64,000 nucleotides of DNA from Allostella vacuolata (GTDB lineage Bacteria > Pseudomonadota > Alphaproteobacteria > ATCC43930 > Allostellaceae), in NCBI GenBank assembly GCA_006739055.1, contig AP019702.1, positions 5,357,388 through 5,421,387 of the forward strand, given 5' to 3'. Of this stretch, positions 53,051 to 57,147 are shown piece after piece. Each line of letters starts with the position of its first letter. Position 1 is the stretch's first letter. A program made the translations under genes and the position numbers. Below the pieces are notes generated by a model. The model was not told where the DNA came from. It saw only the letters and a program-made list of their open reading frames with translations, and searched no databases.

Positions 53051-53971
53051 ATGTCGTCCCTTGCCGATACCACGCTTCCGGCCGACCCGCCGGAGGGCAT
53101 GCGCGTCTTCGATCGCCGCGCCGTCCGCCACCACCGCGAGCGGGCCGCCGCCGCCTTCGCCGCCCACGCCTTTCTGTTCGAGGAGGTCGCCCAGCGCCTG
53201 GCCGACCGGCTGGACGACGTGCGCCGGCAGTTCGCCACGATCCTCGACCTGGGTGCCCGCGGCGGGGTCATGGCCCGGGCGCTCGCGGCGCGCGGCGGCG
53301 ATCCCTTCGTCGTCCATGCCGACCTCTCCCCGCGGCTGGTGGCGGGCCTGCCCCACCCGGTCGTGGCCGACGCCGAGGCGCTGCCGTTCGCCGGCGGCTT
53401 CGACCTGGTGGTCAGCTGCCTCGACCTGCACTGGATCAACGACCTGCCGGGCGCGCTGGTGCAGGTCCGCCGGGCGTTGCGACCGGACGGCCTGTTCCTC
53501 GCCACCTTCTTCGGCGGCGACACCCTGAACGAGCTGCGCGAGGCCTGGCTCGCCGCCGAGATCGAGGTCGAGGGCGGCGCCGGCCCGCGGGTCTCGCCGA
53601 TGGCCGACGGCCGCGATGCCGGCGCCCTGCTGCAGCGCGCCGGCTTCGCCCTGCCGGTGGTCGACAGCGACCGCATCACCGTCACCTATGCCGACCCGGT
53701 CACGCTGATGCGCGACCTGCGCGGCATGGGCGAGACGAATGCGGTCGACCTGCGCCGCCGCGGCGGCACCCGGCGCGACACCCTTTTCCGGGCCGCCGAA
53801 ATCTATGCCGAGCGCTTCGGCGACGGGGACGGCCGCGTGCGGGCGACGTTCGAGATCATCACCATGACCGGCTGGGCGCCGCACGCCAGCCAGCCCAAGG
53901 CGCTCAAGCCCGGCAGCGCCGCCTTCCGCCTGGCCGAGGCGCTGAACGGGCCCGGCCTTAGTCCGAGGTGA
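53051..53971 (+). CDS. BioC/NDUFAF5-like methyltransferase-domain protein
   Basis: This is a 306-residue SAM-binding Rossmann protein. The N-terminus reads MRVFDRRAVRHHRERAAAAF, then ILDLGARGGVMARALAARGG for the cofactor site and SCLDLHWINDLPGALVQVRR. That combination is typical of the alphaproteobacterial/mitochondrial NDUFAF5 group linked to complex I assembly, though annotation as BioC-like is common. ATG 53051 is used; a frame from 52409 is antisense to comF. The last 14 bases overlap the DUF1810 gene. Confidence 0.87.
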   Translation: MSSLADTTLPADPPEGMRVFDRRAVRHHRERAAAAFAAHAFLFEEVAQRLADRLDDVRRQFATILDLGARGGVMARALAARGGDPFVVHADLSPRLVAGLPHPVVADAEALPFAGGFDLVVSCLDLHWINDLPGALVQVRRALRPDGLFLATFFGGDTLNELREAWLAAEIEVEGGAGPRVSPMADGRDAGALLQRAGFALPVVDSDRITVTYADPVTLMRDLRGMGETNAVDLRRRGGTRRDTLFRAAEIYAERFGDGDGRVRATFEIITMTGWAPHASQPKALKPGSAAFRLAEALNGPGLSPR

Positions 53972-54392
53972 CCGCAAGCCGTTCGAGCGTGCGCCGGTCC
54001 GGCTCGCCGCCGAAGTACTTCGCGGTCGCCGCGGCGAAGTCCGTGTCCTCGGGCGCGGCGCGGCCGAAGAGGGTCATGCTCGACCGGAACTTGAGATCGT
54101 CCGGCTTGCCCAGAATCTCTGCAATGGAGCGCCCCTCGACGCGGTTGACTAGCCGCGTGCACTCCCGCAGCCGGGCACCCAGGACGGGATGGGCCAGGTA
54201 GGCCCGCGCCTCGTCGATCGAGACGATCGCGAAGCGTTGCGCCATCGGGCTCGTGCCCAGGCCGCGCAGCTGCGGGAAGACGAACCACATCCAGTGACTC
54301 GTCTTCCGGCCGTCCGCCAGCTCGCCCAGGACCCGGCCATAGACCGGGTCCTGGGCCGCGACGAAACGCTCGAGGCCGTGCGGGTCGGTCAT
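53958..54392 (-). CDS. DUF1810 family protein
   Basis: This is a small soluble protein of 144 residues with the family pattern DPHGLERFVAAQDPVYGRVL, WMWFVFPQLRGLG and PVLGARLREC. The function is unknown. ATG 54392 overlaps the stop of the ABC-F gene (ATGA), so it is expressed with that gene; the five extra residues upstream in frame are disregarded. Confidence 0.86.
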   Translation of the reverse strand: MTDPHGLERFVAAQDPVYGRVLGELADGRKTSHWMWFVFPQLRGLGTSPMAQRFAIVSIDEARAYLAHPVLGARLRECTRLVNRVEGRSIAEILGKPDDLKFRSSMTLFGRAAPEDTDFAAATAKYFGGEPDRRTLERLAVTSD

Positions 54393-55888
54393 TGCGCCTC
54401 CTCCCATCCTTCCACCTCCTTCATCCGGCCACCCTCGATCCGCAGCCAGCGGGTGCCGATGGCGCGGGCGAAGCTTCGGTCGTGGGACACCAGGACGCAG
54501 GTTGCCTCCTGGGCCAGGATCTCCGCTTCCAGCTGCTCCTGGCCGGCGATGTCGACATGGTTGGTCGGCTCGTCCATCAGGTAGAAGTTGGGTTCCGCCA
54601 GCCGGATCGCCAGCAGGCCGAGGCGCGCCTTCTGGCCGGGCGACAGCCGGTCGATGGTCTGGGCCTGCTTCTCGATCGGGAAGCCGGCGCCGGCCAGCAG
54701 GCTGCGGGTGCGCTGGTCGCCCAGGCGGAAGGTGCCGCCGATCAGCTCGGCCGGCGTCTGCCGCGGCGGCAGCTGGGACATCTGCTGGTCGAGATAGCCC
54801 ATTACCGCCGAGGGACTGACCCGGATACCGGGCACGCCGTCGGCTTCCAGCACCGCGCGGCGCAACAGGCCGACCAGCTGCGACTTGCCGACGCCGTTGC
54901 GGCCGACCAGGACGATGCGGTCCTGCTGGCGCACGTCGAGCTTGCCGGTGCGGAACAAGGCCCGCCCGTCCGGCGTGCGCACGGTGACGTCGTCGAGCGA
55001 GGCCAGCACCCGCGCATGGGTGCCCCGGCTGGCGAGGCGGATGTCCGCCGCGCGGGTGGTCCTGGCCGGCCGCAGCGTCTCCTCCAGGGCTTCGGCGCGC
55101 TGCGCCATCTGCATGGATTTCTTCTGCGCGGCGTCGCTGCGGCTGTTGATGCCGATGTTGCGCAGCTGGCCGGCGCTCTGCCGCAGCCGGGCCGCCTCCT
55201 TGGCGTCGCGGGCAAGGCGCGCGGCATCGGCCGCGTCATCCTCCGCCAGCGCCTGGCGGGCGGCGAAGTAGGGCCGGGCATAGAGCCGCGACACCTCCGG
55301 CCGCAGGAAGAGCGTGCGGTTGGTGGTCGCCTCCAGGAACTGCCGGTCGTGGCTGGCGATGACCATCGGCACCTGCCGCAGCGGGCTGGTGATCCAGCCT
55401 TCCAGCAGGCGGATCTTCTCCAGGTCCAGGTGGTTGGTCGGCTCGTCCAGCAGCAGTGCGTCGGGGTCGGCGATCCAGGCCCGCGCAATCAGCGCCAGCC
55501 GCTGCCAGCCGCCGCTCAGCGCGCGGACCGGCCGGGTGCGCAGGTCGCCCGGGGCTTCCAGCTCGTCCAGCACCAGGTCGACCCGCCAGCCCTGGCTCTC
55601 CCGGTCGGCCGGCGGGATCGAGCGGCGCACCGCCTCGGCCAGGGTCAGGTCGAGCAGGCCGGCCGGCAGGTCCTGCTCGACATGGCCGACCTTCAGCCCG
55701 CGGGAGCGGACGATGCTGCCGGCGGTCGGCTCGGCCAGGCCGGCCAGGCAGCGGAGCAGGGTGGACTTGCCACCGCCATTGCCGGCGACGAGGCCGATGC
55801 GGTCGCCCTCGGCGACGACGAGGTTGAGGTTCCGGAAGAGCGGTTCGGCGACGGTGATGCCGACGTTGCGCAGGCTGATCGAGCCCAT
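54389..55888 (-). CDS. ABC-F family ATPase
   Basis: This is a soluble tandem-ABC protein of 499 residues, without membrane segments. Domain 1 has AGNGGGKST (first Walker A glycine replaced by Ala), LSGGWQRLAL and LLLDEPTNHLDLEK. A charged linker of about 80 residues follows. Domain 2 has GRNGVGKSQ, LSPGQKARLGLL and LMDEPTNHVD. ABC-F proteins act on ribosomes in translation or antibiotic protection. Length and the upstream leader structure fit a resistance-type member better than EttA/Uup. ATG 55888 is preceded by GAGAGA; DUF1810 follows. Confidence 0.88.
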   Translation of the reverse strand: MGSISLRNVGITVAEPLFRNLNLVVAEGDRIGLVAGNGGGKSTLLRCLAGLAEPTAGSIVRSRGLKVGHVEQDLPAGLLDLTLAEAVRRSIPPADRESQGWRVDLVLDELEAPGDLRTRPVRALSGGWQRLALIARAWIADPDALLLDEPTNHLDLEKIRLLEGWITSPLRQVPMVIASHDRQFLEATTNRTLFLRPEVSRLYARPYFAARQALAEDDAADAARLARDAKEAARLRQSAGQLRNIGINSRSDAAQKKSMQMAQRAEALEETLRPARTTRAADIRLASRGTHARVLASLDDVTVRTPDGRALFRTGKLDVRQQDRIVLVGRNGVGKSQLVGLLRRAVLEADGVPGIRVSPSAVMGYLDQQMSQLPPRQTPAELIGGTFRLGDQRTRSLLAGAGFPIEKQAQTIDRLSPGQKARLGLLAIRLAEPNFYLMDEPTNHVDIAGQEQLEAEILAQEATCVLVSHDRSFARAIGTRWLRIEGGRMKEVEGWEEAQ

Positions 55889-56132
55889 GGTGCATCTCTC
55901 GCGACGGGTGCCGGCCATGCGCCCTCGGGCAGCGGCCGGATCACGGATCGAAAATCAGGAGAAGCAGCTGGCCCAGCATCGCTGGGCGGACAGCGCGAGA
56001 GCGCCGTTCCGGGCAGGCCCGACAGGATGGGACGCGACGGGTCGCGTCAGTTCCGAGCGGAGGCCAGCCCCGCAACGGAACGCTGCGGGGCACGCACAGG
56101 GCCACGGGAATGGTGCTGGATGTACGCGATCA
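55889..56132 (-). promoter_or_regulatory. Structured leader (attenuator-like) of the ABC-F gene
   Basis: Three strong hairpins lie between the leader ORF start and the ABC-F start: 56067-56091 (8-base stem, within the leader ORF), 56031-56048 (8-base perfect stem, overlapping the leader stop) and 55971-55987 (7-base stem, 3-base loop), the last followed on the transcript by a T-rich stretch. A weaker CCGGCC/GGCCGG pairing lies at 55911-55939. The 323-base gap holds no other gene. This layout fits ribosome-controlled attenuation. Confidence 0.5.
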
Positions 56133-56133
56133 T
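56047..56133 (-). CDS. Putative leader peptide of the ABC-F gene (28 residues)
   Basis: ATG 56133 is preceded by a strong Shine-Dalgarno (GGAAGGGAGG, 5 bases before the start). The frame encodes MIAYIQHHSRGPVRAP followed by 12 more residues and ends at TGA 56047-56049. Codons 15-22 form one hairpin and the stop codon touches the next, so ribosome stalling here could change folding downstream. It was not seen as a gene by length criteria; translation is inferred. Confidence 0.5.
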   Translation of the reverse strand: MIAYIQHHSRGPVRAPQRSVAGLASARN

Positions 56134-56173
56134 GCAGCCCTCCCTTCCATGGCCGGGCGTTGAAGCTGCGGGG

Positions 56174-56202
56174 GTGTTAGCGGGACGGAAACGGCCGCGC
56201 AA
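56174..56202 (-). promoter_or_regulatory. Candidate promoter of the ABC-F leader
   Basis: On the minus strand TTGCGC (56197-56202), 17 bases and TAACAC (56174-56179) precede the leader ORF; predicted transcription would start near 56167, about 35 bases before the leader ATG. It would let the ABC-F/DUF1810 unit be transcribed independently of argJ and the GNAT-Nudix gene. Confidence 0.45.
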
Positions 56203-56211
56203 GCACCATCG

Positions 56212-57147
56212 TCACAGCAGATCCCGCAGCATCGCCACCAGGGGCTCGTCGGCCGGCGGCATGGGGTAGTCGCGCAGACGGTTGGGCCACACCCAGGCGA
56301 GGCGCTGGCCCTCCTGCGGGGTGGGGGTGCCGCGCCAGTTGCGGCAGGCGAAGAGCGGCATCAGCAGGTGGAACGCCTCGTAGCGGTGCGAGGCGAAGGT
56401 GAGCGGCGCCAGGCAGCGCTCGGCGGTGTCGATGCCCAGTTCCTCGGCCAGTTCGCGGACCAGCGCCTGCTCCGGCGTCTCGCCCGCCTGCACTTTGCCG
56501 CCCGGGAACTCCCAGAGGCCGGCCATCGGTTTGCCGGCCGGCCGTTCGGCGATCAGCACCCGGCCGTCGGCATCGATCAGGGCGACCGCGGCCACCAGCA
56601 GGGTCGGCAGCACCACCGGCCGCCGGATCTCGTAGCGCACCGTCTCCACCGGCTGGCCGCGCAGCCGGCCCTGGACGCGCCCGGCCTCCTGCATCCCGGC
56701 CTTCTCGAGCACGCGGCGCGACGGGACGTTGTCGGGATGGACCTCGCCGAACACCATCTCGACCCCGTCGAAGGAGAAGGCGTAGCGCAGGGCCGCCTTC
56801 AGGGCTTCCGCCCCGTAGCCCTGCCCCCAGTAGGGGATGCCCAGCCAGTAGCCGACCTCGATCTCGCCCGGCCGCTCGGTCTGCTCCAGGCCGATATTGC
56901 CGAGGAAGCTGCCGTCGCCGCGCCGGGTGATGGCCAGCACCTCGGCGTGCCCGGCCTCCCGGTCGGCGGCCACCTGGGCGATGAACGCCTCGGCGGCCCC
57001 GTCCGGGTAGGGATGGGGCAGGCGCTGGGTAAAGCGTGCGACCTCCCACGGCGCAGCCAGGGCCGCCACCGCCGGCGCGTCGGCCGGCGCCAGCGGCCGC
57101 AGGACGAGGCGCGCCGTGGTCAGCGCATCAGCTGCGGTAGCTGCCAT
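56212..57147 (-). CDS. GNAT acetyltransferase fused to MutT/Nudix hydrolase
   Basis: This is a single 311-residue frame with two enzymes. Residues about 1-175 are a RimJ/RimL-type GNAT domain (ARLVLRPLAPADAPAV, VGYWLGIPYWGQGYGAEALK, HPDNVPSRRVLEKAG). Residues about 180-311 are Nudix, with the box GKVQAGETPEQALVRELAEE then LGI, and EFPGG before it, like 8-oxo-dGTPase MutT. ATG 57147 lies inside argJ (20-base overlap) in another frame; there is no later start before the GNAT domain. No stop separates the domains. Confidence 0.87.
   Translation of the reverse strand: MAATAADALTTARLVLRPLAPADAPAVAALAAPWEVARFTQRLPHPYPDGAAEAFIAQVAADREAGHAEVLAITRRGDGSFLGNIGLEQTERPGEIEVGYWLGIPYWGQGYGAEALKAALRYAFSFDGVEMVFGEVHPDNVPSRRVLEKAGMQEAGRVQGRLRGQPVETVRYEIRRPVVLPTLLVAAVALIDADGRVLIAERPAGKPMAGLWEFPGGKVQAGETPEQALVRELAEELGIDTAERCLAPLTFASHRYEAFHLLMPLFACRNWRGTPTPQEGQRLAWVWPNRLRDYPMPPADEPLVAMLRDLL

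Follow-up and report, generated by a model that had tools for sequence, protein, structure and literature searches.

A putative ribosome-operated translational attenuator with a conserved R-G-P leader peptide upstream of an ABC-F subfamily in Alphaproteobacteria

Known leader-peptide switches and the ABC-F locus

In translational attenuators of the ermC type, pairing of the leader arms as 1:2 and 3:4 alternates with 2:3, as we propose for the leader analyzed here, although the gene, peptide, and hosts differ. Among ABC-F genes, streptococcal msrD has a leader (MsrDL) that resembles the present one in (i) a short upstream open reading frame (uORF) placed before the ABC-F gene; (ii) a switch operated by a stalled ribosome; and (iii) an action of the ABC-F protein on its own leader stall, which is described for MsrD and proposed here (PMC10314930). 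MsrDL differs in its transcription terminator switch and in its peptide (PMC10314930), whereas the present leader combines a peptide of 19 to 29 residues, an R-G-P-V/I core, and masking of a Shine-Dalgarno sequence, and is found in Alphaproteobacteria. The VmlR and CplR leaders share with it a uORF, alternative hairpins, and Shine-Dalgarno masking adjoining the ABC-F gene but have tripeptide uORFs (MIN and MR[I/M]), intrinsic terminators, and Gram-positive hosts (PMC9226507, PMC10201436). For CplR the mechanism was termed translational attenuation, with termination being inessential for induction (PMC9226507, PMC10201436). Overall, the ABC-F leaders in the cited works are Gram-positive and carry intrinsic terminators (PMC10314930, PMC10201436, PMC9226507). 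In toiL-topAI, uORF stalling likewise unmasks a ribosome-binding site, for which several drug classes are proposed; however, the target is an Escherichia coli toxin-antitoxin gene and no ABC-F is involved (PMC12121999). Arrest peptides of the RAPP/RGPP type (e.g., ApdP) have R-G-P at the proposed P site as here, while the present peptides have V, I, D, or A as the fourth residue, are much shorter, and precede a different target gene (PMC12992588).

The locus lies in a 64,000-nucleotide stretch of DNA from Allostella vacuolata (the window), whose genome is a single contig of 5.83 Mb. An ABC-F ATPase of 499 amino acids is encoded on the minus strand at 54389..55888, with its ATG at 55888 (reading frame 55888-54389) and two stretches matching Pfam ABC_tran. 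The best NCBIfam match of the protein was ribo_prot_ABC_F, with a score under the cutoff; none of the best 25 of 188 models reached its cutoff, resistance models included, and the protein was assigned by these 25 curated models to no named antibiotic resistance (ARE) ABC-F subfamily. When profiles of solved structures were compared, the best match was 8buu, with an alignment that spanned both ABC domains, the first of which has no extra arm; 6ha8 also scored high. Both are labeled ExpZ in the structure table, and we take them to be VmlR2 (8buu) and VmlR (6ha8). Nineteen other proteins were 47-84% identical to the window ABC-F, and several residues of the linker stretch NIGINSGSD were found to be invariant. 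The ABC-F frame appeared to be interrupted at two loci, by a stop at 437 amino acids in L174 (genome G204) and by a frameshift near the start in L218; faulty assembly or gene decay may account for these interruptions.

A GNAT-NUDIX gene, which ends at 56212, is the immediate upstream neighbor; argJ, which the original prediction named as a possible source of read-through, lies beyond it. The DUF1810 gene predicted to be controlled together with the ABC-F gene is present as an open reading frame (53958-54407) that overlaps the ABC-F stop, but none of the 31 other ABC-F loci searched has it beside the ABC-F gene, and its standing as a conserved partner was rejected. As judged by eye, the neighboring genes differ between lineages, which argues that the leader and the ABC-F gene behave as one cassette. 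In G001 (L189), a start that may resemble AbrB and an ORF with a possible likeness to toxins were noted immediately downstream of the ABC-F gene.

Parts of the leader and its distribution

All parts of the leader are on the minus strand. A promoter-like element, TTGCGC-N17-TAACAC (56174..56202), is present in letters as predicted, with TTGC-N17-TAA kept in the three Stella orthologues (G000, G001, and G002); however, it is a weak consensus match, and a strict promoter scan of the window leader returned no promoter-like sites. The strong Shine-Dalgarno expected ahead of the uORF was found as GGGAGGG upstream of the ATG at 56133; of this region (GGAAGGGAGGGCTGC, 56134..56148), GGGAGGGCTGC is identical in G000, G001, G002, and L028. 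The uORF itself has 28 codons (MIAYIQHHSRGPVRAPQRSVAGLASARN, 56047..56133) and includes hairpin 1 (arms 1:2; GCCCCGCAGC GTTCC GTTGCGGGGC, 56067..56091), whose 3′ arm and following bases form arm 2 (GGGGCTGGCC, 56062..56071). A second hairpin (GACGCGACCCGTCGCGTC, 56031..56048) overlaps the uORF stop and could be drawn by eye in the three Stella genomes with partly different letters. The uORF and both hairpins had been predicted at these places, and the uORF and hairpin 1 were found to recur in 51 aligned leaders, far beyond chance; conservation among orthologues had been set as the test of the prediction, and these two elements passed it. Comparison with relatives thus supports the reading that this alphaproteobacterial ABC-F gene is preceded by an attenuator-like leader containing a conserved uORF. 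The folding z-score of the whole window leader was -2.46.

Within the genus of the window, the ABC-F was detected in three of four genomes, with no match at E ≤ 1e-60 in the fourth (G003). A search for related loci gave 41, two of which were useful orthologues: L027, which is the same place as G002, and L028, a Rhodospirillaceae MAG with 65% ABC-F protein identity in which two stem pairs differ and both are still paired. Nine of the 39 other loci (25-37% identity) were searched with a covariance model, R1, built from the G000, G001, G002, and L028 leaders, which have the uORF, its Shine-Dalgarno region, and hairpin 1 in common; the best E-value was 0.43. In an even class draw, R1 matched in 14 of 385 genomes at E ≤ 0.01, with real members in 11; the matches in G301, G357, and G373 and a second one in G000 were false, and L151, L155, L156, and L157 were dropped for having no R-G-P uORF and no tblastn match to the ABC-F. 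A second covariance model, R2, built from 13 of the first members, matched in 11 of 385 genomes at E ≤ 0.001 when the draw was centered on G134, and was found in 5/7, 5/61, 6/36, and 1/16 genomes of four orders. In an even phylum draw, 22 of 398 genomes matched R2, all from the same class; loci were available for 20 of the 22 (18 new, all examined), the two weakest hits being G728 and G825. Named members include Stella, Sinorhizobium meliloti pSymA (strains M162 and M270), Rhizobium, Shinella, Pararhizobium, Gemmobacter, and Ketogulonicigenium; the handles L150 and L169 denote the same place. Among alphaproteobacterial plasmids with an ABC-F orthologue (at least 12 records), nine were examined and all nine had the leader; the plasmid hits H9, H11, H12 (further Ketogulonicigenium), H13, H14, H17, and 24 further records fall outside this set. 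The ABC-F start was located 70-188 nt 3′ of the uORF stop in 50 of the 51 leaders, the exception being L218 with its frameshifted start.

The leader was found to follow close orthology of the ABC-F. In the even class draw, 22 of 385 genomes encode an ABC-F that matches profile A5 at E ≤ 1e-90. Close orthologues numbered 15 (14 at ≥620 bits and G314, truncated by a contig end), and 12 of these have the leader, while an R2 match was found upstream of none of seven distant ABC-F genes (470-534 bits) from the same draw. G292 has a degenerate leader (MRIIRRLQHGPRHAL; R2 E = 0.019) and G297 a remnant at most, and no leader was found at the close orthologue of G330. It is possible that the leader was lost in the G297 lineage. 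At locus L198 of G297, an A+T-rich stretch about 200-240 nt upstream of the ABC-F gene was seen by eye to look like a decayed RYxTR-GPV uORF.

In viral contigs, an exact pattern matched 67 stretches, none of which was seen by eye to have an R-G-P uORF from the ATG of the pattern. Rfam searches at the gathering score detected no family in 10 loci; the best match of the window was mir-4869, at 16.2 bits against a cutoff of 70. The leader was not described among the matches listed for the open-access literature, and term searches of two S. meliloti papers gave no mention of it. Separately, all five gammaproteobacterial relatives examined (L221, L222, L241, L242, and L243, i.e., Rahnella, Ewingella, two Pantoea, and Vibrio campbellii plasmids) were observed to encode an unrelated-looking uORF (e.g., MLTREVFLISLVLSDRHCSSVTGIVLR, MPSCELFVYSHFYGDWTRSGCTALVLR, and MSLWCSINPRFYGMKDRSRVSDFALR) that follows a strong Shine-Dalgarno and lies some 190-210 nt before the start of the ABC-F gene. 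These uORFs end near an inverted repeat, CTCAAG...CTTGAG or CTCAGG...CCTGAG, and possibly represent a second leader family.

The uORF core, the paired arms, and the ABC-F Shine-Dalgarno region

The 51 uORFs were found to have 19-29 codons and, by the rule used, start with GTG (26) or ATG (25), the start of L028 being counted at a GTG one codon 3′ of its ATG. The consecutive core columns are occupied by R (44 leaders), G (50), P (49), and V (40) or I (7), with RG in 43 leaders and GP in 48; the residue after V/I is free, and the next position is A in all 51. The core P is residue 11-17 across the leaders and residue 12 in the window, where the R-G-P-V codons (56095..56106) form the proposed stall site. 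Among 14 representatives, variability at codon positions 1, 2, and 3 of R-G-P-V was 0.07, 0.04, and 0.53, and codon pairs differed by 178 synonymous versus 26 non-synonymous changes. These codon patterns indicate that selection acts on the encoded peptide around R-G-P-V/I; as judged from sequence, the target gene is preceded by a conserved uORF of coding character, as in uORF-controlled translational attenuators.

In the alignment of the 51 leaders, the A codon marks the start of hairpin 1, at a distance of 9 nt from the first P-codon base. In this alignment, which was fitted to the hairpin 1 structure and therefore favors pairing figures, 98.0% of 505 cells were paired, both sides were changed at 6 of the 10 pairs, and the covariation score was reached by none of 500 shuffles; sliding the hairpin by 1-3 columns cut pairing to 35-53%. 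The hairpin thus overlaps the uORF as the 1:2 pairing of an attenuator does, with the reservation that the alignments are structure-fitted.

Arm 2 is mostly GGGC-U-GACC, and a complementary downstream arm 3, GGTC-U-GCCC, was detected, usually with one fixed mismatch; in the window, the proposed partner of arm 2 is GGCCTGCCCG (56010..56019). Inspection of 24 spacers by eye served to define the arm 3 pattern, which was present in 16 of them (1.3 expected); it was then found in 24 of 27 later-collected spacers (1.43 expected), giving 40 of 51 in all (about 2.7 expected). The alternative 2:3 pairing of an attenuator is thus supported for the family, with 11 of 51 leaders from which the pattern is missing. 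The variable half of the arm pair covaries (GGCC/GGCC, GGTC/GACC, GATC/GATC, and GACC/GGTC), with P = 0.0018 for 10 representatives and P = 0.02 for 9 distinct pairs; in the 24 later arm pairs alone, variation was too small for a covariation test (P = 1.0). Arm 2 pairs without the fixed mismatch in L153 and L166 (GGCTGAC with GTCAGCC), while the five f58 leaders have one extra mismatch. By RNAduplex, arm 2 gained modestly with native over swapped spacers (-19.5 versus -17.9), a whole-spacer comparison that is noisy in G+C-rich sequence.

The Shine-Dalgarno region of the ABC-F gene (arm 4; CGCGAGAG, 55896..55903 in the window) was found to be more closed than in dinucleotide-shuffled spacers in all 13 clusters (Wilcoxon P = 1.2e-4; 24 leaders in clusters of our own grouping). 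The window alone is weak in this respect, with 28% of shuffles equally closed. When the Shine-Dalgarno stretch was paired with the neighborhood of arm 3 (40 leaders) or with the 52 nt that follow hairpin 1 (11 leaders), the longest helix measured 6.5 versus 4.9 in shuffles and was longer than in shuffles in 41 of 51 leaders; the window is among the other 10 (4 versus 5.0). The best native duplex of the Shine-Dalgarno stretch surpassed all 21 swapped ones. In the window, two candidate partners were found: (i) CTCTCGCG (55994..56001), an 8-nt perfect complement of 55903-55896; and (ii) TGCTTCTC further down, which is preferred in the minimum-energy fold of the leader. In S. meliloti, the Shine-Dalgarno region contains GACCAGAG, the same letters as arm 2, and both can therefore compete for arm 3. 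Masking of the target Shine-Dalgarno by 3:4 pairing, as in an attenuator, is thus supported by folding for the family and weakly for the window. Overall, a conserved uORF, hairpin 1, arm 2/arm 3 complementarity, and a closed Shine-Dalgarno region are linked to one ABC-F subfamily, and this anatomy is well supported for the family and less so for the window by itself.

Proposed operation of the leader and alternative readings

We consider it probable, with good confidence, that the leader is a ribosome-operated translational attenuator of the ABC-F gene. In the uninduced state, a ribosome would translate the entire uORF, hairpin 1 (1:2) would form behind it or the terminating ribosome would cover arm 2, and arm 3 would pair with the ABC-F Shine-Dalgarno region (3:4), such that ABC-F translation would be poor. 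Upon induction, a ribosome would stall with the GP codons at its center, 9 nt before hairpin 1, and cover arm 1; the freed arm 2 could then pair with arm 3 (2:3), opening 3:4 and releasing the Shine-Dalgarno. The ABC-F would then be made and act on stalled ribosomes. We infer the stall at RGP-V and the order of the switch from 1:2/3:4 to 2:3, and the usual cause of the stall would be a drug acting at the peptidyl transferase center or the tunnel. When stalled ribosomes were simulated by equilibrium folding, the gain in Shine-Dalgarno opening was small (about 0.03). Placing the P site at G, at P, or at V raised the opening in 7 of 13 clusters each time (uncorrected P = 0.17, 0.05, and 0.11, respectively). 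Opening was greater with a ribosome at RGPV than with a ribosome early in the uORF (P = 0.007); for the comparison with a terminating ribosome, P was 0.14. The window leader displayed no switch in equilibrium folding, its opening being 0.33 naked and at most 0.34 with a stalled ribosome.

A putative function of the leader in antibiotic sensing is likely. Macrolide stalling is known at +x+ sites, and the more specific reading in which a macrolide-type drug stalls the ribosome at R-x-R before GP, with the ABC-F giving resistance to that drug, stands in our estimate slightly above even. The pattern [RK]-x-[RK]-G was found in 35 of 51 leaders, and the solved structures closest by profile (8buu, with 6ha8 also high) fit this reading, as does the drug sensing common among described ABC-F leaders (PMC10201436, PMC9226507, PMC10314930). 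However, R-x-R-G is missing from 16 of the 51, all three Stella leaders included, and the ABC-F remains under the cutoffs of the NCBIfam resistance models noted above.

An intrinsic arrest with feedback is possible, though we regard it as less likely than not. Here the uORF would be a weakened RGPP/RAPP core that stalls the ribosome drug-free, the P site holding P and the A site holding V or I where the known core has P; the ABC-F would resolve the stall, such that low ABC-F activity would raise its own synthesis. In keeping with this, the exact core is RGPV in 34, RGPI in 6, and RGPA in 1 of the 51 leaders. Arrest by ApdA and ApdP strictly requires the Arg, is fully permitted or strengthened when Gly replaces Ala, and takes place when the P site holds the third codon and the A site the fourth (PMC12992588); furthermore, the ribosome stalled on the MsrD leader peptide is itself a target of MsrD (PMC10314930). 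Counter to this reading, 10 of the 51 leaders are without exact R-G-P (HGPD, HGPV, LGPV, CGPV, CGPI, YGPV, RQPV, RGSV, and RGSD), and the fourth residue, V, I, D, or A throughout, is never Pro or Gly; thus the R-A/G-P followed by P or G of RAPP/RGPP arrest peptides was found in none of the 51. In addition, little nascent chain would be inside the tunnel, since the P is residue 11-17. A related and rather doubtful suggestion is that the leader is a class-wide homeostatic sensor, in which the V/I-weakened R-G-P core would arrest upon slowed peptide-bond formation or ABC-F shortage and turn the ABC-F on.

The attenuator reading was also weighed against control of transcription, either by attenuation as in MsrD or VmlR or by Rho-dependent termination of the untranslated ABC-F, which we regard as improbable. 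ABC-F genes of the MsrD and VmlR type use intrinsic terminators (PMC10314930, PMC10201436, PMC9226507), and toiL couples masking to Rho (PMC12121999). In the present set, a stretch with 5 T in 8 was found in 33 of 51 spacers and terminator-like sites in 6 of 51 leaders; yet the latter number is close to the 4.0 expected from shuffles, and the scan of window positions 55800-56300 detected none. An intrinsic terminator between uORF and gene, as in the MsrD and VmlR type, was thus not found in the window leader, and such sites are not enriched in the 51. Of four aligned leaders, those of the window and G001 alone showed by eye the third hairpin of the original prediction; its assignment as a terminator was rejected on these same scans. 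These results point to control of translation start by Shine-Dalgarno masking more than to control of transcription. That the uORF is a small functional peptide or a chance ORF, with the RNA structure as a by-product of a G+C-rich region in which the uORF codes through hairpin 1, is very improbable, given the hairpin 1 covariation (0/500 shuffles), its collapse on sliding, and the joint conservation of motif, spacing, and downstream gene.

From sequence comparison, the leader appears to be a new and widespread form of ribosome-operated attenuation that serves an ABC-F subfamily. Were the homeostatic suggestion true, the leader and the ABC-F would make up a single self-regulating cassette that travels as a whole. 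If the attenuator reading holds, an uncharacterized ABC-F in Alphaproteobacteria, including that of Sinorhizobium meliloti, would have a defined leader-peptide switch with a sharply delimited signature, in which R-G-P-V/I keeps a constant distance of 9 nt to a covarying hairpin, and the RGP arrest core would be tied to ABC-F control.
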